This document shows, one piece after another, positions 2,192 through 58,179 of a stretch of DNA of 64,000 nt (position 1 is its first letter; the number at the start of each line of letters is the position of its first letter). Below the pieces are notes generated by a model. The model did no database searches. It saw nothing but the letters and a program-made list of their open reading frames with translations, and had not been told where the DNA came from. The position numbers and the translations under genes were made by a program. This DNA comes from Tabrizicola soli (lineage in GTDB: Bacteria > Pseudomonadota > Alphaproteobacteria > Rhodobacterales > Rhodobacteraceae). The stretch is from positions 62,001-126,000 of the forward strand of contig NZ_JAEACP010000009.1 in the NCBI RefSeq assembly GCF_015999335.1, read 5' to 3'.

Positions 2192-4558
2192 ATGACGATC
2201 GAGAACGTGGCCTCGCCGCTGGCGCAGGCTTTGGCAGACAAGGGCTATGAGACGCTGACCTCGGTGCAGGAGGCGGTGCTGGCGGACGGCGTCGCGGGCC
2301 GCGATGCGCTGGTCTCGGCGCAGACCGGCTCGGGCAAGACGGTGGCCTTCGGCCTGGCGATTGCGCCCGAGATCCTGGGCGGGCAGGACGTGCTGCTGTT
2401 CGCCGACAAGCCCATCGCGCTGGCCATCGCGCCGACGCGGGAATTGGCGCTGCAGGTCGCGCGCGAACTGGAATGGCTTTACGCTGGCGCCCAGGCCAGG
2501 CTGGCCACCTGCGTCGGCGGGATGGACTACCGGACCGAACGCCGCGCGCTGGAGCGCGGGGCGCATATCGTTGTCGGCACTCCCGGCCGGTTGCGCGACC
2601 ATATCGAGCGCGGCAGCCTCGACCTGTCGGGTATTCGCGCCGTGGTTCTGGACGAGGCGGACGAGATGCTGGACCTGGGCTTTGCCGAGGACCTGGAGTT
2701 CATCCTGGCCGCCGCACCCGAGGACCGGCGGACGCTGATGTTCTCGGCCACTGTGCCGAAAGAAATCGAGAGGCTCGCCGGCGAGTTCCAGAAGGACGCG
2801 CTGCGGATCGTGGCGCAGGGCGAGGCGAAGCAGCATGTCGACATCGAATACCGCGCCTTCTCGGTCGCGGTGCGGGACCGGGAACATGCGATCTTCAACG
2901 TGCTGCGCTTCCATGAGGCGCGGACGGCAATCGTCTTCTGCAAGACGCGGGCAAACGTGAATCACCTTCTGGCGCGGATGGGCAACCGGGGCTTTCAGGT
3001 CGTGGCGCTCTCGGGCGAACTCAGCCAGCAGGAACGCACCCACGCCCTGCAGGCCCTGCGCGACGGTCGCGCACGGGTCTGCATCGCCACCGACGTGGCC
3101 GCGCGGGGCATCGACCTGCCGGGGCTGGAGCTGGTGATCCATGCCGACCTGCCCTCCAACTCGGAAACGCTGCTGCACCGTTCCGGCCGCACCGGGCGGG
3201 CGGGCAAGAAGGGCGTCTCGGCGCTGATCGTGACCCCGGCCGAGTTCAAGAAGGCCCAGCGCCTGCTGTCGGGCGCGAAGGTCGTGGCGGAATGGGGCGC
3301 GGCCCCCGGCGCGGACGACGTGCAGGCCAAGGATGACCTGCGGATTCTGGAGCATCCCGCCCTGACCGCCCCCATCGGCGACGAGGCCGGGATCGCGGGC
3401 GATCTCTTGCAGCAGTTCGGCGCCGAGGCCCTGGCCGCCGCCTTCGTCCGGCTGTGGCGCGAGGGTCGCTCGGCCCCCGAGGTCCTGTCCACCGACCTGC
3501 CGGTCCCGCCGCCCTCGGCCCCGCGCGAACGCGGCGAATTCGGGCCTTCGGTCTGGTTCCGGATCTCGGTCGGCCGCGCGGGCCGAGCCGAGGCGCGCTG
3601 GCTGCTGCCCAAGATCTGCGACGCGGGCAGCATCGCCAAGGACGGCATCGGCGCGATCCGGGTGCGCGAGGACGAGACCTTCGTGCAGATCGCCGAGGCG
3701 CTGGCCTCGCGCTTTGGCGGCGAGGTCGAGCTGGACAAGGGCCTGACGATGCAGCGGGTCGAGGGCGAGCCGGAATTCGACAAGCCCCGTTTCCCGCGCG
3801 CCGAGAAGCCCCGGTTCGAGCGTCCCGAACGGCGCGAGCGGGCCGAGAAACCCGCCTATACTCCGAAACCGCCGCGCGTGGTCGAGGAGGGGGACGAGGC
3901 CCCGTCCGAGTACCGGCCGAAGCCGAAGGCGAAATACGACGACCGTCCCCGCCCGTCCGAAGCGCGGCCCGAGTGGAAGGACCGCCCGGCGCGCGACGAC
4001 GACCGCCCGGCGCGCAAGCCCTATGCCCCGCGTCCCGAGGGCGAGACCGAGGACCGCCCGCGCAAGCCGCGCTGGTCGCCGGACCAGAAATCCGCTCCGC
4101 GCGCGGCCGGCTACAAGAGCCATGGCGGCGCGTCCGACAGGCCCGCCCGCGCCGGCGGCTACAAGAGCCATGCCGCCGAAGGCACCGGCTTCAAGCGCCG
4201 CGACGAGGGCTACAAGCCGCGCGAGGAGGGCGACCGCCCGGCCCGCAAGCCCTATGCGCCGAAGCCCGAGGGATTCCGGCGTGACGAAGGCGACCGTCCG
4301 GCGCGGAAACCCTATGCCCCCAAGGGCGAGGGCTACCGCCCGCGTGAGGAGGGCGACCGGCCGAAAAAGACCTATGCGCCCAAGGGCGACGAGGCGCGGC
4401 CCTTCGTGAAACGTGAGGGTCCGGGCAAGCCCGGCGGGTTCAAGAGCCATGCGGCCGGGGGCAAGAAGCCGTTCGACAAACCCCGGGCCGAAAAGCCCCG
4501 GACCGATGCGCGCGATACCTCCAAGCGGTTCGTGCCGCCGAAGGGGCCGAAACGCTGA
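2192..4558 (+). CDS. DEAD-box ATP-dependent RNA helicase with DbpA-type RNA-binding domain and basic repeat tail
   Basis: ATP-dependent RNA helicase, probably acting in ribosome assembly or cold-shock mRNA remodelling like DeaD/CsdA. The 788 residues contain, in order: Walker A AQTGSGKT (43-50), PTRELA (81-86), DEAD (154-157), SAT (185-187) and HRSGRTGR (329-336). A DbpA-like RNA-binding fold follows at about 450-515. After it comes a tail of some 260 residues rich in Arg, Pro, Lys and Glu with recurring units such as RPARKPYAPK and GYKSH. The frame runs open upstream through the tRNA gene, which cannot be coding; the ATG at 2192 begins the normal N-terminal helix just before the Q-motif region. 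The DbpA-like domain and overall order favour the DeaD/CsdA group over RhlE. Confidence 0.93.
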   Translation: MTIENVASPLAQALADKGYETLTSVQEAVLADGVAGRDALVSAQTGSGKTVAFGLAIAPEILGGQDVLLFADKPIALAIAPTRELALQVARELEWLYAGAQARLATCVGGMDYRTERRALERGAHIVVGTPGRLRDHIERGSLDLSGIRAVVLDEADEMLDLGFAEDLEFILAAAPEDRRTLMFSATVPKEIERLAGEFQKDALRIVAQGEAKQHVDIEYRAFSVAVRDREHAIFNVLRFHEARTAIVFCKTRANVNHLLARMGNRGFQVVALSGELSQQERTHALQALRDGRARVCIATDVAARGIDLPGLELVIHADLPSNSETLLHRSGRTGRAGKKGVSALIVTPAEFKKAQRLLSGAKVVAEWGAAPGADDVQAKDDLRILEHPALTAPIGDEAGIAGDLLQQFGAEALAAAFVRLWREGRSAPEVLSTDLPVPPPSAPRERGEFGPSVWFRISVGRAGRAEARWLLPKICDAGSIAKDGIGAIRVREDETFVQIAEALASRFGGEVELDKGLTMQRVEGEPEFDKPRFPRAEKPRFERPERRERAEKPAYTPKPPRVVEEGDEAPSEYRPKPKAKYDDRPRPSEARPEWKDRPARDDDRPARKPYAPRPEGETEDRPRKPRWSPDQKSAPRAAGYKSHGGASDRPARAGGYKSHAAEGTGFKRRDEGYKPREEGDRPARKPYAPKPEGFRRDEGDRPARKPYAPKGEGYRPREEGDRPKKTYAPKGDEARPFVKREGPGKPGGFKSHAAGGKKPFDKPRAEKPRTDARDTSKRFVPPKGPKR

Positions 4559-6782: not shown

Positions 6783-8285
6783 TCAGAGAAGCTGCATCCC
6801 GTTGGCGAAGACGCCGCCATCGCGGAATTCGATCTCGGAAACCAGCTCGTCCGGCCCGGCGGGACGGGCGAACATCGCCAGCCCCATGCGGAAGCCCGTC
6901 GCCTCGTCCTCGCCCAGCAACCCCAGGGCGATCAGATTCTCGACCAGCTTGTGCACGCCCCTGATCTTCACGTTGAACTTGCCATCCGGGCGCGGCACGC
7001 CGTCGAAGGTCACAAGGTCGGTGTTGTCGAAGGTGACCCCGCCGGTGGCCGAAACCTCGGCCCCCGCGCCCTTGGTCAGAAGCTCTGTCAGCTCCAGAGA
7101 ATGCAGCTCGCCCGGTGGGGTCGGCGCGTCCAGATCGACCGCGGGATCCATGATGTCCCTGGTCCAGAGGCCGGTGCCCTTCGTGTCCAGCACGAAACTG
7201 GCCGGTTCGCGCGAGAGACGGGCGCCGGGGTCGAACAGGTCCCAGAGCTCCTCCGAGATGGTGAAATCGACCAGGCGGGTGAGGAAGGCGAAGTCCTGCG
7301 GCCTGTCGGACTTGCTGACCGGCATCACGAGATTGAACCCGCTTTCGGCAAAGGCCATCTCGACCTGCGGGAAGGGAAGGTCGTGCGACGACAGCGTGAA
7401 CCTGGCCCCGGAGAGCGAGGTGCCGTAGTTCATCCGGCTCTTGTCCAACGCCAGGACAAGACTGCCGCCGGCGGCACGGGCGGCCATCTTCGTCGGGCCG
7501 GCCGCCTCGGTCAGGTCGAAGTCCAGGCTGGCCGCGCCGAAGGACAGGCTGGTGTCGACGCTGAAGCCGCCGTTCAGCGCCACGGCGAGGTTCGCCATCA
7601 GATCGGCGTTCAGCAGATTGCCCTTCGTCGCGCCGCCGATATCGGCCAGCGTGACCGCGACCCTGCCGTCCGAGCCGGTTTCGGGGTCCTTGCCCGCGAT
7701 GTCCAGCGCCAGGTCTCTGGCGGCAAAGCTGGCGTCCAGCGCGGTCCGGTCGCCGTCCCGGGTCACCAGATAATGCCCCGTCGCCTCGGTCACGACCATC
7801 TCGGCCGTCGTGTCCAGGACCTTGCCGGTCTCGTCCGTCACCTCGTCCAGCGTCACCGTGACCTTCGGCGCGGTGAAGTCATAGCTGGTCTCGCTCGCGC
7901 TGCCGCCCGCGATGATCGCCATGCCCGGCTGGCTGATCGTCAGCTTCAGCGAGCCCGGCCCGTCCACCCGCTCGGGGAAGGCCATGGCCAGCGGATAGCT
8001 GTCCGGCAGAGTCACCGTCACCGTGCCGTCGCCATTGCCCGTGAACACCAGCCTGTCGAAGGTGGCCGAGGCGGTTCCGGCCAGCGGGTCCTTGTGGGTC
8101 AGGACGAGATCGGTCACCTCCAGCCGGTCGCCCTCCTGCGCCGTGCCGCCGACCGTCAGCTCTTGCCCGGCCGCGGTCGCCATCGCCTGCCAGCTTTCCC
8201 AGACCTCGGCCGGCGTCACGTCGGCCAGTGCGGCGGCGGGGGCCAGCACGAATGCCAGGGCCGTGGAACGGACAGCGCGGGACAT
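6783..8285 (-). CDS. DUF2125 domain-containing secreted protein
   Basis: A 500-residue protein with a clear N-terminal signal peptide (MSRAV, then a hydrophobic stretch ending around AALA, residue 22), so it should reach the periplasm or outer membrane. The rest is beta-rich with many short alternating segments, as in the DUF2125 family found in alphaproteobacteria. The family has no established function; some members resemble AsmA-like envelope proteins, but that is inference. The ATG at 8285 is preferred to an ATG 12 codons upstream because it leaves a normal-length signal peptide. First gene of a probable unit with pmbA and cysQ. Confidence 0.8.
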   Translation of the reverse strand: MSRAVRSTALAFVLAPAAALADVTPAEVWESWQAMATAAGQELTVGGTAQEGDRLEVTDLVLTHKDPLAGTASATFDRLVFTGNGDGTVTVTLPDSYPLAMAFPERVDGPGSLKLTISQPGMAIIAGGSASETSYDFTAPKVTVTLDEVTDETGKVLDTTAEMVVTEATGHYLVTRDGDRTALDASFAARDLALDIAGKDPETGSDGRVAVTLADIGGATKGNLLNADLMANLAVALNGGFSVDTSLSFGAASLDFDLTEAAGPTKMAARAAGGSLVLALDKSRMNYGTSLSGARFTLSSHDLPFPQVEMAFAESGFNLVMPVSKSDRPQDFAFLTRLVDFTISEELWDLFDPGARLSREPASFVLDTKGTGLWTRDIMDPAVDLDAPTPPGELHSLELTELLTKGAGAEVSATGGVTFDNTDLVTFDGVPRPDGKFNVKIRGVHKLVENLIALGLLGEDEATGFRMGLAMFARPAGPDELVSEIEFRDGGVFANGMQLL

Positions 8286-9018: not shown

Positions 9019-9952
9019 ATACGGAAGCGGCCGCCTGAACCTGCCCTTCGTGGGCATCTCGACCTTCGGCAAGAACCCCTACCAGCCCGACTGGTCGAAG
9101 ATCGACGCCGACTTCGCCATCCTCGGCGCGCCCTTCGACTTCGGCACCCAGTTCCGCGCGGGCGCACGCTTTGGCCCGCGCTCGATCCGTGAGGCCTCGA
9201 CCCTGTTCTCCTTCGGCCACGCCGGGGCCTATGACCACGAGGACGACGTGACCTATCTGGAGGGCGTCCGCATCCTGGATATCGGCGACGCCGACATCGT
9301 CCACACCGATACCGAAACCAGCCACGCCAACATCGAGACCGGCGTCCGCGCCATCCTCGCCGCCGGGGCCGTCCCCGTGGTCCTCGGCGGCGACCATTCC
9401 ATCAACATCCCCTGCATCCGCGCCTTCACCGGCCGCCCGCTGCATATCGTCCAGATCGACGCGCATCTCGACTTCGTCGACGTGCGGCACGGCGTCCGCC
9501 ACGGCCACGGCAACCCGATGCGCCGGGCCGCCGAACAGGACCACGTCAAGGGCATCACCGCGCTGGGCATTCGCAACGTCTCCTCCACCGCCAAGGACGG
9601 CTACGATGCCGCGCGCAGGATGGGCGACGACATCCTCTCCGTCCGCCAGATGCGCAAGCTGGGGGTCGAGGCGACGCTGGCCCGCATCCCCAAGGGCGTC
9701 GACTACTACCTGACGCTGGACATCGACGGCTTCGATCCCTCGATCGCGCCCGGCACCGGGACACCCTCGCATGGCGGTTTCCTGTATTACGAGGTGCTGG
9801 AGCTGATCGACGGGTTGACGAAACAGGGCAACATCATCGGCATCGACCTGGTGGAAGTGGCGCCCGACTACGACCACTCCGGCATGACCGCGATCCTTGC
9901 GGCGCAGATCCTGCTGAACACCATCGGGCGCATCGCCCATAACCGGAAGTAG
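9008..9952 (+). CDS. speB: agmatinase (ureohydrolase family)
   Basis: Mn-dependent ureohydrolase predicted to convert agmatine to putrescine and urea. The 314-residue protein has the metal-binding motifs GGDHS (127-131), DAHLD (151-155) and DIDGFDPS (about 238-245). The usual DAHTD reads DAHLD here, leaving the metal-binding Asp and His unchanged. It starts inside the ATGA overlap with the hydratase gene. Guanidinobutyrase or another ureohydrolase specificity is possible; the family is confident, the substrate less so. Confidence 0.88.
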   Translation: MSNGYGSGRLNLPFVGISTFGKNPYQPDWSKIDADFAILGAPFDFGTQFRAGARFGPRSIREASTLFSFGHAGAYDHEDDVTYLEGVRILDIGDADIVHTDTETSHANIETGVRAILAAGAVPVVLGGDHSINIPCIRAFTGRPLHIVQIDAHLDFVDVRHGVRHGHGNPMRRAAEQDHVKGITALGIRNVSSTAKDGYDAARRMGDDILSVRQMRKLGVEATLARIPKGVDYYLTLDIDGFDPSIAPGTGTPSHGGFLYYEVLELIDGLTKQGNIIGIDLVEVAPDYDHSGMTAILAAQILLNTIGRIAHNRK

Positions 9953-9961
9953 GTCGCGGCG

Positions 9962-11200
9962 ATGCCCGAGGTCCTGGTCATCGGCGCCGGTCCCGCCGGG
10001 TTGATGGCGGCCGAGGAACTGGCCCGTGCCGGGATCGGGGTCCTGGTCTGCGAGGCCAGGCCCTCGATCGGGCGCAAGTTCCTGATGGCCGGGAAGTCGG
10101 GGCTGAACGTCACCAAGGACGAGCCTTTCGCCAGCTTCGTCACCCGCTACGACGCCCCGGAACTCCGCCCGATCCTGGCCGGGTTCGGCCCCGGCGAAGT
10201 GCAGGACTGGTGCCGCGCCCTGGGGCAGGAGGTGTTCACCGGATCGTCGGGCCGGGTCTTTCCGGTGGCGATGAAGGCCTCTCCCCTGCTTCGCGCCTGG
10301 GTGCAGCGCCTTGCGGCGCAGGGCGTCGAGATCCGCACCCGCTGGCGCTGGACCGGGTTCGACGGCGGGGGCTACCGCTTCGACACCCCGGACGGGCCGC
10401 AGACGCTGCGCCCCGGCGTGACGGTCCTCGCCCTGGGCGGGGCAAGCTGGCAGCGCCTCGGCTCGGATGCCGCCTGGGTCCCCTGGCTGCGAGGAAAAGG
10501 GGTCGCCGTCGCGGAATGGAAGCCCGCGAACATGGGTTTCCGGGTGGACTGGTCGCCGAAGATGACGCCTTTCTTCGGCCATCCGGTGAAGGGCGTCACC
10601 CTGATGGCCTGCTCCTCGAGCACTTCGTGCACTCCTCGCGACGGCCGGCGACGAGTGCACGAAGTGCTCGAGGAGCATCGCGGAGAGTTCGTCCTGTCGG
10701 CGAGAGGCGTGGAAGGCGGCGGGATCTATGCGCTCAGCCGTCCGCTGCGCGAGGGCGCGACGCTGGCGCTCGACCTCTTGCCCGGCCTGTCGCAAACGGA
10801 GATCGACCGCCGCCTCGCAGGGATGCGGTCCGGCGAAAGCACGATGAACCGCCTGCGCAAGCTGGGCCTGGACCGCACGCAGGCCGCGCTGGTGATGGAA
10901 TTCTCCCGCGCCGAGCCCTTGGCCCATCTCAAGCACCTGCCGATCCCGCTGCAGGGCCCCCGGCCGCTGGACGAGGCGATCTCGGTCGCGGGGGGCGTGG
11001 AATGGGGGTCGGTGACGCAGGACCTGGAGCTGAAGGCCCTGCCCGGCTGCTTCGTCGCCGGCGAGATGCTGGACTGGGAGGCCCCGACGGGCGGGTATCT
11101 TCTCACCGCCTGCTGGGCGACGGGGCGCTGGGCCGGGCAGGCGGCCGCGGCGGCGCTCAGTCGTGCAGGCGGTCCAGCCAGGGCAGCGCCTCAAGGGTGA
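9962..11200 (+). CDS. HI0933-family FAD-dependent oxidoreductase with an in-frame palindromic insertion
   Basis: A 412-residue flavoprotein. The N-terminal dinucleotide-binding motif is VIGAGPAGLMAAEELARAG (about 6-24), followed by GRKFLMAGKSGLNVT, the signature of the HI0933/BaiN-like (TIGR03862-type) family. The C-terminal region has a second FAD-contacting segment, AGEMLDWEAPTGGYLL. No function is established for the group. Residues about 217-238 (CSSSTSCTPRDGRRR... to ...EVLEEH) are encoded by a 66-bp near-perfect palindrome and have no counterpart in the family as I know it; the reading frame is kept through it. The 3' end overlaps the convergent DUF4304-like gene by 44 bases. Confidence 0.88.
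   Translation: MPEVLVIGAGPAGLMAAEELARAGIGVLVCEARPSIGRKFLMAGKSGLNVTKDEPFASFVTRYDAPELRPILAGFGPGEVQDWCRALGQEVFTGSSGRVFPVAMKASPLLRAWVQRLAAQGVEIRTRWRWTGFDGGGYRFDTPDGPQTLRPGVTVLALGGASWQRLGSDAAWVPWLRGKGVAVAEWKPANMGFRVDWSPKMTPFFGHPVKGVTLMACSSSTSCTPRDGRRRVHEVLEEHRGEFVLSARGVEGGGIYALSRPLREGATLALDLLPGLSQTEIDRRLAGMRSGESTMNRLRKLGLDRTQAALVMEFSRAEPLAHLKHLPIPLQGPRPLDEAISVAGGVEWGSVTQDLELKALPGCFVAGEMLDWEAPTGGYLLTACWATGRWAGQAAAAALSRAGGPARAAPQG
10611..10676. repeat. 66-bp palindromic element inside the HI0933-family coding sequence
   Basis: Two 29-base arms, 10611-10639 and 10648-10676, are inverted copies with a single mismatch, around an 8-base centre (GACGGCCG). The arm contains GAGCACTTCGTGCACTC and is itself partly self-complementary (GCAC-TTC-GTGC). 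The length is exactly 22 codons and free of stops in the gene's frame, so the gene is not broken. This is the behaviour of REP-type or RPE-like (Rickettsia palindromic element) repeats. Confidence 0.9.
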
Positions 11201-11585
11201 GGATGTCGATCGTGCGCGACAGATACGCGGGCTTCTCCAGCACGTCCAGGAAGGCCAGCCGCCCCGGATCCTCGCCGCCGCCGCCGCCGAAACGCTCCAT
11301 CGTCATCTCGTCCTCGTCCCATTCCGCCGGCGGCTCTCCCTCGGGCGTGACGAAGCGCAGGAGGATCTGCACCTCCCAGCCATAGCGATTGCGTTGCAGA
11401 TGGACGGCGGACTTTCCGTGCGGGGAAGATCGGCTCCAGGTGCTGCCCCTCAGGACATAGCCAAAGGGCCGCAGCGCCCCGTCCAGCGCCGCGACGATGC
11501 GGGCATGGGCCTCTTCCCGCCGCGCCGGGAACGCCGGATCATGCGCGGCGTGGTGCTTGCGGGCGGAAAGATCCTCGTCCTCCAT
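11157..11585 (-). CDS. DUF4304-like hypothetical protein
   Basis: A 142-residue soluble protein with no signal peptide or membrane segment. The central part (GALRPFGYVLRGSTWSR, then VHLQRNRYGWEVQI) resembles DUF4304 proteins, which share a pattern of a GF.. motif followed by a strand with LQ. Function unknown. It follows pheS with stop and start codons directly abutting (TGAATG), so it is very probably translated from the pheS mRNA. Its 3' end lies within the last codons of the convergent flavoprotein gene. Confidence 0.6.
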   Translation of the reverse strand: MEDEDLSARKHHAAHDPAFPARREEAHARIVAALDGALRPFGYVLRGSTWSRSSPHGKSAVHLQRNRYGWEVQILLRFVTPEGEPPAEWDEDEMTMERFGGGGGEDPGRLAFLDVLEKPAYLSRTIDILTLEALPWLDRLHD

Positions 11586-12668
11586 TCAGGCCGAGAGCCC
11601 GCCCGCCAGATCCGGCACGTCCAGCGCGGAAAAGCCGTAGTGCCGCAGCCAGCGCAGGTCGGCCTCGAAGAAGGCGCGCAGGTCGGGGATGCCGTATTTC
11701 AGCATCGCGATCCGGTCGATCCCCATGCCGAAGGCGAAGCCCTGCCATTGGTCAGGATCGATCCCGCCCGCCGCCAGCACCTTGGGGTGCATCATCCCCG
11801 AGCCGAGGATCTCCATCCACTTGTCGCCCTCGCCGATCTTCAGCTGGCCGCCGACGTTGGAATAGCGGATGTCGACCTCGGCCGAGGGTTCGGTGAAGGG
11901 GAAATGGCTGGCGCGGAAGCGCAGTTCCACCTTGTCCACCTCGAAGAAGGCGCGGCAGAACTCTTCCAGGGTCCACTTCAGGTTCGCCATCGAGATGTTG
12001 CGGTCGATGGCCATGCCTTCGACCTGGTGGAACATCGGGGTATGGGTCTGGTCCATGTCCATCCGGTAGACCCGCCCCGGCGCGATCACCCTGATCGGCG
12101 CGCCCTGGTCCATCATCGCGCGGATCTGCACCGGCGAGGTATGGGTGCGCAGTACATGCGGCGGGCGGTTGTCGCCCTCAGCCCGGTGCATGAAGAAGGT
12201 GTCATGCTCCTGCCGCGCGGGGTGTTCCGGCGGGATGTTCAGCGCGTCGAAATTGTACCAGTCGCTCTCCACCTGCGGCCCCTCGGCGACCGAGAAGCCC
12301 ATGTCGGCGAAGATCGCCGTCAGCTCCTCCATGACCTGCGACACCGGATGGATCGTCCCGCGCGGGCGCGGCCGGCCCGGCAGGGTCACGTCCAGCCATT
12401 CCGTCTTCAGCCGCTCGTCCAGCGCGGCGTCGCCCAGCGCGACTTTGCGGGCGCGCAGCGCGGCGTCGATCTCGTCCTTCAGCGCGTTCAGGCTGGCCCC
12501 GGCGGCCTTGCGCGCCTCGGGCTCCATCTTGCCAAGACCGGCCATCAATCCGGAAATCTCGCCCTTCTTGCCCAGGGCGCCGACGCGGACCTCTTCCAAC
12601 CCGGCCTCGTCCGCCGCATTGGCCACGGCGGCAAGGTATCTGGCCTTGAGCGTGTCGATCCCGTCCAT
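11586..12668 (-). CDS. pheS: phenylalanyl-tRNA synthetase alpha subunit
   Basis: Catalytic alpha subunit of the alpha2beta2 PheRS that charges tRNA-Phe. 360 residues with an N-terminal coiled coil (about 1-90) and a class II synthetase core: motif 2 region around [12 protein letters not shown] and motif 3 [18 protein letters not shown] near the C-terminus. The frame extends 19 codons further but the ATG at 12668 gives the usual MDGID...LKARYL start. pheT is not in the downstream position it often holds; the next gene is a DUF4304-like protein. Confidence 0.97.
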
Positions 12669-12799: not shown

Positions 12800-13306
12800 A
12801 TGATCACCCGGCGGTTCACCAAGGGCGACGCAGAGTCCGAAGCGGTCTATTCCGACTGCGAGAACTATCGCTTCCTGCTGACCCGCAGCTGGGGTCCGGG
12901 GCCGCGCGCGCTGTTCGTGATGCTGAACCCCTCGACCGCGACCGAGGTGCAGAACGACCCCACCGTCGAACGCTGCGAGCGGCGGGCGCGGACGCTGGGC
13001 TTTGGCGCCTTCCGGGTGACCAACATCTTCGCCTGGCGTGCCACCGACCCCAGGGCGATGCGCGCGGTCCCCGATCCGGTGGGCGCCGAGAACGACCGGG
13101 CGATCCTGAACAGCCTGGACTGGGCGGATACGGTGGTCTGCGCCTGGGGCAATCACGGGCTGCACCTGAACCGGGGCCCAAGGGTCGAGGCCATGCTGCG
13201 CGAGGCGGGGGCCGAGTTGCACCATCTGGGCCTTACCGGCCGGGGCCAGCCGACCCATCCGCTGTATATCGCCTACGACCGCCAGCCCCAAAGCTGGCCG
13301 CGTTAG
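12800..13306 (+). CDS. DUF1643 domain-containing protein
   Basis: A 168-residue cytosolic protein. The conserved DUF1643 segments are [21 protein letters not shown] (start), [11 protein letters not shown] and VCAWG(N)HG. The function of this family is not known; it occurs both as a lone core gene and in mobile regions. The ATG at 12800 is chosen over one 11 codons upstream because it is preceded at 6-14 bases by a strong AAGGAGGGG ribosome-binding site (12786-12794). Divergent from pheS; its stop overlaps that of the RTX gene by 4 bases. Confidence 0.85.
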
Positions 13307-14337
13307 GTCGGGAAGGCGACCAGGCGCACGTCATCGGCATCGAGGGCGCTGCCCCGGACCAGCGCGACCGCCTTGCCGTTCAGCAGGATCGTGCTTTGCG
13401 TGGCATCCGGCGAAGTCTTGATGCCAAGCACGGGATCCGGGTGCTGGGCGGCGTCATACATCACCACCAGCTGATCCTGCAGGGCGTTGTAATCCGCGAT
13501 TTCGGCCAGTTCGCCGTCCGGCCCGGTCCCGGCCAGCAGGAAGACATCCTCGCCCTCGCCCCCCGTGGCATGGTCGCCCGCGCCAAGGAAGATGCTGTCG
13601 TCCCCCGCGCCGCCGTTCAGGAAATCCTCGTCGAGGTCATCGGCATCGCCGTCAAACCCCGACAGCCAGTCATTGCCGCTGCCGCCGTCCAGGATGTCCA
13701 CGCCGTCGCCGCCGGCCAGCCGGTCGTCGCCATCGCCGCTGGCCAGCCAGTCGTCGCCGGCGCCGCCCGACTGCGTGTCATCGCCCGCCCCGCCCAGAAC
13801 AGTATCGTTCCCGGCATCCCCCGAGAGCGAATCCTCGCCCAGATCGCCCAGGATCGAATCGTCGCCGGCGCCGCCAAGGATCGTGTCATGGCCCGCCTGC
13901 CCGGTCAGGCTGTCATGCCCCTCGCCGCCCTGGAGCCGGTCGTCACCGCCGCCGCCCCAGCCCGCATCGTCGCCGGACCCCGCGTCGATCCAGTCGTCGC
14001 CGTCGCGCCCGTCGATCAGGTCGGCGCCATCCCCGGCCTCGATCCGGTCGTCGCCGGCGCCGCCGGAGAGCACCTCTCCGCGCGCGCTGCCGTGAAGCTG
14101 GCGCCCCGCCTCCGCCTCGCGGGGCAGGTCGTCGGAGTGGGGATCCATCTCCTCGAACAGGTCGAAGGCCGGCTCGTCCGGGTCTTCGGGAAGATCGGCG
14201 GGATCGCCGTCCTCCTCCGGCGGACGGCCGGACAAGGCTGCATCGGCGATCACCCCCGCCGCGAGGACACCCAGAACACCCAGTATCGTCAACACCACAC
14301 CACTCCGACACAGTGTCGCCGCGCCCGCGTTAACCAA
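13303..14337 (-). CDS. membrane-anchored RTX (calcium-binding nonapeptide repeat) protein
   Basis: 344 residues. One hydrophobic segment (about 13-33) could be a signal anchor or uncleaved signal. An acidic linker follows (about 38-75). Residues about 88-265 consist of roughly 18 repeats of the GGxGxDxL type, which in RTX proteins fold as a Ca-binding beta roll. A C-terminal domain of about 75 residues ([12 protein letters not shown]...) resembles the end domain of small hemolysin-type proteins. There is no catalytic domain, and no type I secretion genes are nearby. The acidic repeats imply an extracytoplasmic, calcium-loaded protein; its role is unknown. Confidence 0.82.
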
Positions 14338-54355: not shown

Positions 54356-56203
54356 ATGTTCCGTTTCTTCGAAAACCTCGTCGATCCCTATCAGACCTAT
54401 GTCCAGACCGATGCGCCCCCGCGCCGGCTCTGGCCCTTCCTGCGCGACTATGTCCGCCCCTTCCGCGCGGTCTTTGCCGTCACCGCGCTGTTCTCGGTCG
54501 GCAATGCGGTGCTGGACGTCGGCCTGATCTGGTATCTCGGCCGCCTCGTCGACCTGATGTCCGGGCAAAGCCCGCAGGCCTTCCTGGCCAGCCACGGGGC
54601 CGAGATCCTGGTCGCCGCGCTGGTCATCCTGATCCTGCGGCCGCTGGTCGCCGGCGGCTCGGTCGGGCTGCTGCACAACACGATCCTCACCAACTTCGGC
54701 ACGATGATGCGCTGGCGCGCGCACCGCCATGTCCTGCGCCAGCCCGTCGGCTGGTTCGAGAGCGATTTCGCCGGCCGCATCGCCAACCGGATCATGCAGG
54801 CCCCCCCGGCGGCGGGCGAGGCGGTGTTCCAGGTCTTCGACATGGCCGCCTTCGCCGCCGCCACCTTCATCGGCGCGCTCCTGATGCTGGCCGAGGCCGA
54901 CCCCCGGCTGATGCTGCCGCTACTGGCCTGGGTGATCGGCTATCTCTGGCTGATGCGCTGGACCATCCGCCGCGCCGGCCCGGCGTCGAAAGCCTCCAGC
55001 GATGCGCGGTCGGCGGTGACGGGACGGGTGGTGGACAGCTACACCAACATCCATTCCGTCAAGCTCTTCGCCCATCAGGACGCCGAACTGGACTATGCCC
55101 GCGAGGCCATCGAGACCTCGCGCAGGACCTTCCAGACGGAAATGCGCATCGTCACCAAGATGGACGTGGCGCTGACCTTCCTCAACGGGCTGATGATCCT
55201 GGGCGTCGGCGGCCTGGCGCTGTGGTTCTGGGTCCAGGGCACGGCCACCGTCGGCGTGGTCGCTGCGGCCCTGGCGCTGGTCCTGCGCATCAACTCGATG
55301 ACCTACTGGATCATGTGGGCCTCGACCAACCTCGTCCAGAACCTCGGCACGCTCGCCGAGGGGATGGAGACCATCGCCCAGCCCGTCACCCTCACCGACC
55401 ACCCCGGCGCCCGCCCGCTGGAGTTCAGGCAGGGCCTGATCCAGATCCAGGGCGTCTCGCACCACTACGGCCGGGGCTTCGGCGGCCTGCGCGACGTGAC
55501 GCTGACCCTCCGCCCCGGCGAGAAGATCGGCGTCGTCGGCCGCTCGGGCGCGGGGAAGTCCACGCTGGTCAAGCTGATGCTGCGTTTCTACGACAGCGAA
55601 TCCGGCGCGATCCTGATCGACGGGCAGAACGTCGCCGAGGTCACGCAGGAAAGCCTGCGCCAGAACATCGGCATGGTGCAGCAGGACAGCAGCCTCCTCC
55701 ACCGCTCGGTGCGCGAGAACATCCTTTACGGCCGCCCCGACGCGACCGAGGCCGAGATGATCGCCGCCGCGCAGAAGGCCGAGGCGCATGACTTCATCCT
55801 CACGCTCGAGGACCCGCAGGGCCGCCGGGGCTATGACGCCCATGTCGGCGAAAGGGGCGTCAAGCTCTCCGGCGGCCAGCGCCAGCGCGTCGCCATTGCC
55901 CGCGTCCTCCTGAAGGACGCGCCGATCCTGATCCTGGACGAAGCCACCTCCGCGCTGGACAGCGAGGCCGAGGCCGCGATCCAGGCCGCGCTCTACGGCG
56001 TGATGCAGGGCAAGACGGTGATCGCCATCGCCCACCGCCTGTCGACCATCGCCGCGATGGACCGGATCGTCGTCCTGGAGGACGGCCAGGTGGTCGAGGA
56101 CGGAACCCATGCCGAACTTCTGCGCCGGAACGGCCTTTATGCCCGCTTCTGGGCCCGGCAATCCGGCGGCTTCATCGGGCTGGAGGAGGACGCGGCGGAA
56201 TAG
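54356..56203 (+). CDS. ABC exporter, fused permease-ATPase (first of a paralogous pair)
   Basis: 615 residues. N-terminal half with about six membrane helices (to ~330), C-terminal nucleotide-binding domain with Walker A GRSGAGKST (about 395-403), signature LSGGQRQR (about 505-512) and ILDEATSALDSE. Family: multidrug/lipid exporters (MsbA/LmrA-like). The product is closely related to the next gene, including the tail LYARFWARQSGGFIG, so they may form a heterodimer or be a recent duplication. Substrate unknown. Confidence 0.92.
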   Translation: MFRFFENLVDPYQTYVQTDAPPRRLWPFLRDYVRPFRAVFAVTALFSVGNAVLDVGLIWYLGRLVDLMSGQSPQAFLASHGAEILVAALVILILRPLVAGGSVGLLHNTILTNFGTMMRWRAHRHVLRQPVGWFESDFAGRIANRIMQAPPAAGEAVFQVFDMAAFAAATFIGALLMLAEADPRLMLPLLAWVIGYLWLMRWTIRRAGPASKASSDARSAVTGRVVDSYTNIHSVKLFAHQDAELDYAREAIETSRRTFQTEMRIVTKMDVALTFLNGLMILGVGGLALWFWVQGTATVGVVAAALALVLRINSMTYWIMWASTNLVQNLGTLAEGMETIAQPVTLTDHPGARPLEFRQGLIQIQGVSHHYGRGFGGLRDVTLTLRPGEKIGVVGRSGAGKSTLVKLMLRFYDSESGAILIDGQNVAEVTQESLRQNIGMVQQDSSLLHRSVRENILYGRPDATEAEMIAAAQKAEAHDFILTLEDPQGRRGYDAHVGERGVKLSGGQRQRVAIARVLLKDAPILILDEATSALDSEAEAAIQAALYGVMQGKTVIAIAHRLSTIAAMDRIVVLEDGQVVEDGTHAELLRRNGLYARFWARQSGGFIGLEEDAAE

Positions 56204-56212
56204 GCAGGCCCG

Positions 56213-56263
56213 TCGATGGCTTCGTCACTCCTCGCAGGTCCCCCGAGGAGGAGACGAAGTCGA
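56213..56263. repeat. imperfect palindromic element between the two ABC exporter genes
   Basis: CTTCGTC (56220-56226) pairs with GACGAAG (56253-56259), and CTCCTCG (56228-56234) pairs with CGAGGAG (56244-56250), with a small internal loop and a 9-base centre; TCGA at both ends can also pair. It shares the core CTTCGT(G)CACTCCTCGC with the palindrome at 10611-10676. The remaining gap up to 56325 shows nothing else. Confidence 0.65.
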
Positions 56264-56325
56264 ACGGGGAGGGGTCGCGTCCATTCGCCCTTGCTTCACC
56301 GCGCCCCCCGGCCTACCTCTCCCCC

Positions 56326-58179
56326 ATGAGCGCGCTTCAAAGCCTCGGCTCCCTCATCGACGCCTTCCGCCCCGCCGACGGCCCGCCGCCGACGCGGCTG
56401 GGCGCCTTCATGCGCTGGGCGCTGGCGGGAAGCTGGCCGATGCTGGTCGCGGCCGGCCTCCTCTCCTCGCTCGCCGGGGTGACCGAAGTCGTCTCGGCCC
56501 TGATCCTCGGCTGGGTGATCGACGCCGCCGTCTCCTCCGGCCCCGCCGATTTCTTCGGGCAGCACGGCAGCCTGATCCTCTGGTTCCTGGTCTTCTACCT
56601 GGTCCTGCGCCCGCTGGCCTTTGCCGTCTCCTCTGCCTCGAACAGCATCATCATCGGGCCGAACGTCCTGCCGCTGGTGCTGTCGCGCCTGCACCGCTGG
56701 ACGCTGGGCCAGGCCGTCACCTTCTTCGACAACGATTTCGCCGGGCGCATCGCGCAAAAGCAGATGCAGGCCGCCCGGGCCGTCACCGATGTCGCGACCG
56801 AGGTGATCAACACCGTCTGCTTCGCGCTCGCCTCCGTCATCGGCTCGGTCGCCTTCCTTGTCGCCGTCGATGCCAAGGTGGCCGTGGCGCTGATGGTCTG
56901 GCTCGTTGCCTACCTGTTCCTGATCCGCTTCTTCCTGCCGGTGGTCCGCAAGAATTCCGCCGCCCGCGCCTCGTCCCGCGCCATGGTTTCGGGTCAGGTG
57001 GTCGACACGATCACCAACATCAAGACCGTCAAGCTTTTTGCCCATGCCGCCTTCGAGGACCGCGTGGCTCTCGACGCGATGGAGGTCTTCCGCGAACGCT
57101 CCCTCGAGTTCGGCGTCATCTCCACCTGGTTCCGCTTTGCGCTGATGCTTCTGGCCGGGGTGCTGCCGGTCCTCCTGATCGGCGGCACCGTCATGCTCTG
57201 GCAGGCGGGCAGCGCCACCGCCGGCGACATCGCCGCCGCCGGGGCCATCGCGCTGCGGATCGCGCAGATGTCGGGCTGGGTCAGCTTCACCCTCATGTCG
57301 ATCTACACCTCGGTGGGCGAGGTCGAGGACGGGATGCGCACCCTTTCCGTCCCGCACACCCTGACCGACGCGCCCGAGGCCCTGTCCCTGCCCCGCGTCC
57401 GGGGCGAGATCCGCTTCGACCACGTCACCTTCGCCTATGGCCGGCAGCGCGGTGGCGTCCAGGACATCGACCTGACCATCCGCGCCGGGGAAAAGCTGGC
57501 CATCGTCGGCGCTTCCGGGGCGGGGAAATCCTCGCTCGTCTCGCTCCTCCTGCGGCTTTACGACCCCGAACAGGGCCGCATCACCCTGGACGGCCACGAC
57601 CTGCGACAGGTGACGCAGGAAAGCCTGCGCCGCCAGATCGGCATGGTCACGCAGGAAACCGCGATGTTCAATCGCAGCGCGCGCGACAATATCGCCTACG
57701 GCCGACCCGAGGCGTCCGAGGCCGAGATCATCGCCGCCGCCAAGGCCGCCGAGGCGGATGAGTTCATCCTGAACATGCTCGACCACCAGAACCGCAAGGG
57801 CTACGACGCCTTCCTGGGCGAACGCGGGGTCAAGCTCTCCGGGGGTCAGCGCCAGCGCATCGCGCTCGCCCGCGCCTTCCTGAAGGACGCGCCGATCCTA
57901 GTGCTGGACGAGGCGACCTCGGCGCTGGACTCCGAGGTCGAGGCAAGCATTCAAGAGGCGCTGGGCCGGGTGATGCAGGGCAAGACCGTGCTGGCCATCG
58001 CGCACCGCCTCTCGACCATCGCCGCGATGGACCGGATCATCGTGATGGATCAGGGCCGGATCGTCGAACAGGGCAGCCATGCCGAGTTGCTGGAGCGCAG
58101 CGGCCTTTACGCCCGCTACTGGAACCGGCAATCTGGCGGCTTCATCGGCACCGAAGACGAAGCGGAAGCAGCAGAGTGA
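56326..58179 (+). CDS. ABC exporter, fused permease-ATPase (second of a paralogous pair)
   Basis: 617 residues with the same architecture as the previous gene: transmembrane half (about 40-330), Walker A GASGAGKSS (about 395-403), LSGGQRQR (about 505-512), LDEATSALDSE and the Walker-B-following H-loop AHRLSTIA. Intact in all motifs. The similarity over the whole length suggests tandem duplication; a heterodimeric exporter is plausible. Its stop codon overlaps the GTG start of the RNA methyltransferase gene. Confidence 0.92.
   Translation: MSALQSLGSLIDAFRPADGPPPTRLGAFMRWALAGSWPMLVAAGLLSSLAGVTEVVSALILGWVIDAAVSSGPADFFGQHGSLILWFLVFYLVLRPLAFAVSSASNSIIIGPNVLPLVLSRLHRWTLGQAVTFFDNDFAGRIAQKQMQAARAVTDVATEVINTVCFALASVIGSVAFLVAVDAKVAVALMVWLVAYLFLIRFFLPVVRKNSAARASSRAMVSGQVVDTITNIKTVKLFAHAAFEDRVALDAMEVFRERSLEFGVISTWFRFALMLLAGVLPVLLIGGTVMLWQAGSATAGDIAAAGAIALRIAQMSGWVSFTLMSIYTSVGEVEDGMRTLSVPHTLTDAPEALSLPRVRGEIRFDHVTFAYGRQRGGVQDIDLTIRAGEKLAIVGASGAGKSSLVSLLLRLYDPEQGRITLDGHDLRQVTQESLRRQIGMVTQETAMFNRSARDNIAYGRPEASEAEIIAAAKAAEADEFILNMLDHQNRKGYDAFLGERGVKLSGGQRQRIALARAFLKDAPILVLDEATSALDSEVEASIQEALGRVMQGKTVLAIAHRLSTIAAMDRIIVMDQGRIVEQGSHAELLERSGLYARYWNRQSGGFIGTEDEAEAAE

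Follow-up and report, generated by a model that had tools for sequence, protein, structure and literature searches.

A REP-like palindromic repeat family in Tabrizicola, with one copy in frame inside a flavoprotein gene and a small asd-linked gene as candidate partner

Results

The locus and its palindromic element

The window analyzed here is a stretch of 64,000 nucleotides from the genome of Tabrizicola soli (G000). It contains a flavoprotein gene that carries a palindromic element in frame, and a second copy of the same repeat family located between two ABC transporter genes (Table 1). The nearest named homologues of the flavoprotein belonged to Gemmobacter, Actibacterium, and Tabrizicola (Paracoccaceae), and its AlphaFold model (mean pLDDT 88) was similar in fold to 2i0z, 4cnj, 2gqf, and 3v76. 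Repeats of other kinds were seen elsewhere in the window: 27-base periodic repeats of the GGAGDD type in a protein encoded at 13303-14337 (RTX-like by inspection), and degenerate repeats of the RPYAPKPEG and GGYKSHA types at 3995-4463, in the C-terminal part of a DEAD-box RNA helicase gene (2192-4558).

Table 1 Location of the element, its host gene, and related features. Coordinates without a locus prefix are those of the window.
Feature	Location	Strand	Description
Flavoprotein gene (TIGR03862, HI0933-like)	9962..11200	+	Carries element in frame; TIGR03862 E=1e-135; PF03486 E=4e-60
Palindromic element	10610..10677	.	Inverted arms of 30 nt with a single mismatch; centre of 8 nt
Left arm, one REP-like unit	10610..10639	+	Mini-hairpin GCAC-TTC-GTGC at 10620-10630; family-wide core pairing
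Centre (spacer)	10640..10647	.	Sequence and length vary among copies (alignment A1)
Right arm, second, inverted REP-like unit	10648..10677	-	Mini-hairpin GCAC-GAA-GTGC at 10657-10667
ABC transporter permease/ATP-binding gene	54356..56203	+	Stop precedes second copy; from gene finder; TIGR02204 E=3e-105, below model cut-off
Second family copy, variant core	56208..56271	+	About 5 nt past stop codon, the usual placement; G000 C57:118206-118273
Downstream ABC transporter permease/ATP-binding gene	56326..58179	+	TIGR02204 E=3e-112, below cut-off; anchored the gap reading in 26 genus genomes
Loci with other palindromes upstream of the ABC transporter gene	L275, L288, L290 and L277, L279, L281, L286, L293		
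Orthologous copies in the pbpC gap	L018:4047-4116, L154, L225, L305, L315, L325		
Small asd-linked gene	L020:7594-8034 (G000 C16:54393-54833); relatives L331-L346, L353-L370		Behind asd

The element is a near-perfect palindrome of 68 bases whose arms are 97% complementary. On base composition alone, about 1e-8 inverted repeats with 29-nt arms, at least 28 pairs, and a loop of 0–20 nt would be expected per 64 kb. The palindrome of 66 bp described in the original prediction, with 29-base arms, one mismatch, and an 8-base centre, is real and lacks just the outer T/A pair. Codons 217-239 of the ORF span the element and one base beyond it (TGC TCC TCG AGC ACT TCG TGC ... GAG GAG CAT). All six frames of this copy were free of stop codons, as they were in 12 of the 25 copies of alignment A1 (the window copy included), compared with 2.6% of 5000 letter shuffles of the window element. 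An Rfam scan of window positions 9500-11700 returned seven matches (microRNA, snoRNA, and U1), every one below the gathering score, and DNA searches of plasmid and phage collections yielded no match.

An insert at the same codons in six species

The segment had been expected to be missing from homologues, and outside the genus the spacing between PVK and EFVIS was 21 residues in 72 of the 78 homologues extracted from 80 loci, 22 residues in three, and mis-extracted in the remaining three rows; distant genera thus lack the segment at this site. Within the genus, 23 of the 29 orthologues whose codons were read had the same empty form (21 residues), and six carried an insert at the same codons, with a palindrome in G000, G024, and G021 and without one in G043, G008, and G045. 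The net gain over the empty form was 18 codons in G000, 19 in G024, 20 in G021, 15 in G043, 13 in G008, and 17 in G045. The claim of an in-frame addition of 22 codons therefore held for the frame and the lack of stop codons but not for a clean gain, since 23 codons of G000 stand where empty orthologues have five. Likeness of the inserts to the element, tested with insert ends that were set by hand and may include host codons, was equalled by none of 1000 shuffles for G024, G021, and G008, by one for G045, and by 421 for G043, whose insert has decayed and bears no likeness to the element. The orthologue of G006 (L149), which has the empty form, contains a frameshift just behind the insert site.

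In the predicted model, the insert lies in a beta-hairpin turn that joins strand 208-217 to strand 235-246, and pLDDT falls under 50 across residues 221-229. The flavoprotein copy occupies this turn in frame, and the inserts of relatives differ from it by whole codons. Peptide and length of the insert vary from species to species.

The history of this site was investigated with gene trees. A single clade of all six carriers was rejected on the flavoprotein DNA tree (p-AU 2e-8; 9e-5 on codons 100-330), as were two five-carrier sets (5e-4 and 1e-3), {G000,G024,G021} (4e-4), and {G000,G021} (0.012), while {G024,G008,G045,G021} (0.35), {G000,G043} (0.15), and {G024,G021} (0.14) were compatible with it. 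The scatter of carriers on the MutS tree equalled that of shuffled labels, and a local-recombination test of the insert gave no sign, the flanks in G000 being no closer to those of the other carriers. Taken together, the rejected clade, the scatter, and the flanks point to two or more acquisitions at a single site, or to transfers old enough for their flanks to have disappeared. The ends of the inserts count against independent acquisitions because they are shared: all six inserts start and end at the same codons, five begin with TGC, five end with CAN before CGC, and four have Lys two residues ahead. These ends would be explained by a single ancestral insertion with loss in the empty relatives, or by an inserted allele passed among species. 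We regard such an origin as possible, if doubtful, in view of the rejection of the six-carrier clade and of both five-carrier sets tested, the flanks of G000, and the retention of RERGEF in nine of the 11 empty relatives from the carriers' part of the tree, as excision could not restore a lost RERGEF.

Copies and range of the repeat family

A first search of the T. soli genome returned 58 matching rows at E up to 10. A covariance model built from 25 copies (alignment A1), all from G000, gave 135 rows in that genome (both strands, best 150 candidates scored), and at least 78 distinct copies were located within 69 sequences around matching rows. This lower bound represents 80 matches minus one duplicate and one joined piece. 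All 32 genomes of the genus contained matches, with 2 to 135 rows each among the best 150 candidates per genome; outside the genus, matches under stricter filters were found in four of 196 genomes of the family. The expectation of further copies elsewhere was thus borne out in the genome itself and throughout the genus. The element is probably an inverted pair of REP-like units belonging to one genus's non-autonomous palindromic repeat family.

Placement of the copies relative to genes

Copies were placed with a codon-usage gene finder retrained on three window genes. A stop codon was located within 25 nt of 64 of the 78 copies in G000. For copies outside genes, the value was 64 of 75, compared with 15% of 15,177 possible positions (p 6e-41, although positions are not independent), in a test using random positions in element-free gaps and leaving out the three copies called inside genes. 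The median stop distance was 6 nt in a different set of 64 copies, comprising those facing a stop and free of contact with predicted genes. Nearest genes were convergent for 35 copies, tandem for 39, and divergent for four. In five copies, the predicted gene end falls inside the element, which supplies the stop codon there.

The three copies called inside genes in this census were the window copy, L216 (start codon uncertain; 5 nt past a stop), and L020 (the units of the small gene described below), leaving the window copy as the sole clear mid-gene insertion among the 78. A set of 58 matches, mainly from other genomes of the genus (one locus, L151, is from G000, and several sites were fetched twice), comprised 45 within 25 nt of a stop, seven at 26-100 nt, three inside genes, and three elsewhere; the intragenic ones were two flavoprotein orthologues and one C-terminal extension. 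The original prediction had likened the element to the palindromes that invade coding sequences in Rickettsia. An RPE-like element specialized in this way would suit the window copy, which is in frame, stop-free, palindromic, and tolerated in a protein loop, but the placement counts in both sets largely refute it, and we consider it very improbable. In L162 (1502-1569) and L168 (1502-1567), copies were read as C-terminal extensions of predicted genes, with the L162 element also giving the stop.

Long hairpins directly past stop codons, many of them between convergent genes, could also be ordinary intrinsic transcription terminators that are alike through function. However, none of 85 downstream flanks contained a run of four T or had six T among ten bases, the likeness of arm sequences across the genome and across species exceeds what a terminator needs, and one copy is intragenic; terminators are therefore an improbable explanation.

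Turnover at orthologous gaps

The gap ahead of the downstream ABC transporter gene was read by eye in 26 of the 32 genomes, leaving out six (one lacking a match, four having nothing closer than a 58-59% relative, and one partial). It contained the family in nine genomes, other palindromes in nine, none recognized in four, and overlapping genes in four. The other palindromes, behind the stop codon, included A/T-rich cores such as AATTTTTCGCGAAAAATT, and CCCCGGACTTGATCCGGGG. In the gap ahead of a pbpC-like gene, read by eye in 28 of the 32 genomes, the family was present whole, partially, or as a variant in nine, and across six species the arms had identities of 0.89 and 0.95 and the spacer 0.45. 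The orthologous copy in this gap follows a large upstream gene, with differing flanks and centre, and lies some 9 nt upstream of the likely start in G000. One and the same gap may thus hold the family, another palindrome, or nothing in different species, as read by eye.

A dispersed, palindromic family that is present or absent at orthologous gaps might be a MITE or the relic of another transposon, mobilized by a conventional DDE transposase and marked by terminal repeats and a duplicated target. Against this, flanking repeats of at least 4 nt were found in five of the 78 copies, compared with 7.9 expected from swapped flanks, and the flavoprotein site misses five codons instead of duplicating any. 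The arms also reach the centre with no core flanked by them, and the search for insertion sequences, which covered Y1 transposases, gave none in the genome (below). We give this origin little chance. Since no target duplication was detected, the case for mobility rests on presence and absence between species and not on a transposition footprint.

Anatomy of the units

Each arm forms a unit of about 27 nt in which two boxes, the first being CTCGTCG or CTCCTCG, enclose a short self-complementary core built around GAA/TTC. The boxes that flank a unit are paired or unpaired depending on the fold. Among 125 C-GAA-G cores from the 78 copies (arms without such a core were excluded), the inner three pairs were kept in 122, with pair 3 being G-C in 88 and C-G in 35. 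The units of about 27 nt preserve their own small hairpin via paired changes, and a pair of units folds into one long hairpin.

Hallmarks of known REPs were searched for. The GTAG motif was not in the consensus of alignment A1, and Y1 (RAYT) transposases (PF01797) gave no match in G000, while the same search was positive in five of 14 control genomes. The self-complementary core of 3-4 bp, the GAA/TTC loop, and the CTC or GTC ends fall outside the dimensions of CGTC REPs.

A small asd-linked gene containing both units

One weak copy called inside a gene drew attention to asd (NF011456 E=3e-156), which is followed directly by a conserved gene of some 147 codons. This small gene was matched in 20 of the 32 genus genomes, and 13 were read as intact; in G022, which was counted as intact, the first ~20 residues appear out of frame. 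Its ORF holds both units inside out, as right unit, CGG, and left unit, with the consensus peptide ARSDEVIDERLLVRLRLLV. Third codon positions at identical residues agreed at 0.83 in the unit segment and at 0.53 elsewhere in the gene (13 genomes), and the units within this reading frame are under nucleotide-level conservation.

Within-unit hairpins had every cell paired in 14 segments of the small gene (13 distinct), compared with 10-47% for slid controls. The values for cells paired, cells with both sides changed, and covariation score were reached by none of 500 shuffles; pairs with both sides changed numbered four of seven, which was equalled in 39 of 500. Pairing between the units was weaker (91.5%; 6 of 500 shuffles). 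A synonymous-codon test of the in-gene hairpin scored 22 of 37 loci, with z from +0.7 to -2.8, negative in 20 of the 22 and weak singly.

Outside the genus, the small gene was present in 42 of 246 genomes (E up to 1e-4), and a search of viral contigs for a relative found none. Nine of 17 small-gene loci from other genera also hold asd, as judged from N-terminal letters. Among the 17, seven fold at the same codons into a hairpin under -45 kcal/mol that has different core letters, the remaining foldable segments being weaker.

Of 26 small-protein sequences, 24 matched TraI_middle (E no higher than 0.1; best, 4e-7) and 25 matched a TraI/MobP relaxase model (E no higher than 0.01; best, 4e-11); the first member is below both curated cut-offs. 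In five longer ORFs, four of which are extensions of small-protein rows, one passed TraI_middle (28.8 vs 27.6), and RHH_1 was found in two at scores below its cut-off (20.2 and 17.7 vs 20.5). By these profile matches, the protein would combine a relaxase-like "TraI middle" region with, more weakly indicated, a ribbon-helix-helix N-terminus. A profile search against solved structures gave designed proteins as best matches (E 1e-5), taken as chance, and CopG at only E 0.28 and 0.29.

The small gene and repeat number

Repeat rows per genome, counted among the best 150 candidates scored with a model from one genome's copies and in some cases on incomplete assemblies, numbered 35-135 (median 103) in the 13 genomes with an intact small gene, 2-61 (median 30) in seven with a broken or partial gene, and 2-56 (median 7.5) in 12 without it. 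A regression on the MutS tree with 23-27 genomes (10 intact in the full set) put the effect at 1.7-2.0 log units. Across 18 settings, which variously included or left out identity to G000, incomplete genomes, and G000 itself, p ranged from 4e-6 to 1.5e-4. Recounting G022 as not intact changed p to 2.5e-5 to 8e-4. Independent pairs on supported branches numbered four, none opposite, which is too few to reach 0.05. The four non-genus genomes with repeats all have the small gene (about 7e-4 by arithmetic if the samples are comparable). These relationships suggest that the small gene may be the partner of the repeat family.

The idea that the repeats of each genome mirror the palindrome of its own small gene was examined in samples of G112 (395,753 bases) and G082 (400,000 bases), both with the gene. 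They were nearly empty: the G112 sample contained the small gene itself and one 26-nt half unit, that of G082 contained none, and the control G050, which is without the gene, contained none. Matches of 14 nt were at chance level in all three samples. The mirror hypothesis is thus unsupported beyond the genus and a few neighbours, and a single dispersed half unit in samples of about 400 kb from two small-gene genera also counts, like the scattered carriers and the G043 insert, against the family-level explanation given above. This half unit (L384:7256-7281) is a lone dispersed half of G112's in-gene palindrome; the predicted gene whose stop lies 3 nt before it ends at 7252.

The small gene may merely have been invaded like any other site, with the link to repeat number arising secondarily from relatedness or from the search model. 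This is a real possibility, to which we give rather less than an even chance. The few supported pairs, the scoring of best candidates with a model from G000 copies, the weaker regression when G022 is moved, and the near absence of dispersed copies in two other genera with the gene speak for it. The regression, which holds with identity to G000 as a covariate, and the long palindromes with other core letters at the same codons in several other-genus homologues speak against it.

Discussion

Our preferred reading remains that of an inverted pair of REP-like units in a dispersed family. The hairpin behind genes may act on the mRNA 3' end, through protection from 3' exonucleases or ribosome release, and the flavoprotein copy would be a stray insertion that the protein tolerates and from which new protein sequence could arise. 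More tentatively, the family could spread as folded single-stranded DNA recognized by a protein, for which the small asd-linked protein, with both units in its own gene, would be the best candidate. A stronger version has the small gene as cradle and working partner of the family: the protein would bind the GAA/TTC mini-hairpins, and the dispersed and flavoprotein copies would have been released from the gene and kept or spread by the protein. We offer this version as a speculative one.

According to the available part of PMC3733652, REP/BIME elements in the broad sense are palindromic units of 20-40 nt in many copies, often in inverted pairs, located within ~20 bp of gene 3' ends between convergent and tandem ORFs, with some supplying stops and some intragenic. 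The Tabrizicola family shares these traits, with its unit of about 27 nt, at least 78 copies, and position mostly downstream of tandem or convergent genes, but it has no GTAG tag, its core of 3-4 bp carries a three-base GAA/TTC loop, and its genome is without RAYT. The CGTC-tagged REPs of the same source, mostly alphaproteobacterial and apparently without a dedicated transposase, also resemble it in host class, in the lack of a known dedicated transposase, in inverted pairs, and in CGTC and CCTC strings at unit ends; they differ in having stems of 8-9 bp rather than a core of 3-4, loops of 4-5 rather than 3, and a CCA tail that is absent here. RPE-1, -4, and -6 likewise are in-frame palindromes in protein genes (PMC3733652, available part), while intragenic copies are exceptional in the Tabrizicola family, which is set apart from them by placement. 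Since defining features of GTAG and CGTC REPs, RPEs, MITEs, and terminators were looked for and not found, we describe the family as working like BIMEs without filing it under any of these classes.

The available part of PMC3733652 also places CGTC REPs in all alphaproteobacterial orders and describes intragenic REPs outside Rickettsia, including dimers encoding 20-30 residues and a same-site case in recB of two Xanthomonas, so a REP-like family in this group is unsurprising in itself. Six Rhodobacterales genus names gave no match in that part of the text, and a literature search covering few subscription journals returned, in the material available, no description of the repeat family or the small gene. 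REPs within 15 nt of a stop have been reported, in the accessible part of PMC12306157, to affect translation, and such an effect would fit the placement of the Tabrizicola family.

The small gene, with its putative partner role, is the most novel part. Ribbon-helix-helix relaxosome accessory proteins such as PcfF (PMC6514445, available part) resemble its product in size, a ribbon-helix-helix-like N-terminus, and a tie to relaxases. The small gene differs in being chromosomal beside asd, in the TraI-middle-like C-terminal part of its product, and in the palindrome inside its own ORF.

The family described here is a REP-like one of unusual build, in which the site of one in-gene insertion occurs in empty, filled, and decayed forms side by side, so that the conversion of a DNA repeat to protein sequence can be followed. 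The small gene provides a concrete candidate partner for a repeat family without RAYT. If that partnership is true, it would represent a REP-like system without RAYT in which the repeat lies within the coding sequence of its own partner protein and is translated along with it.
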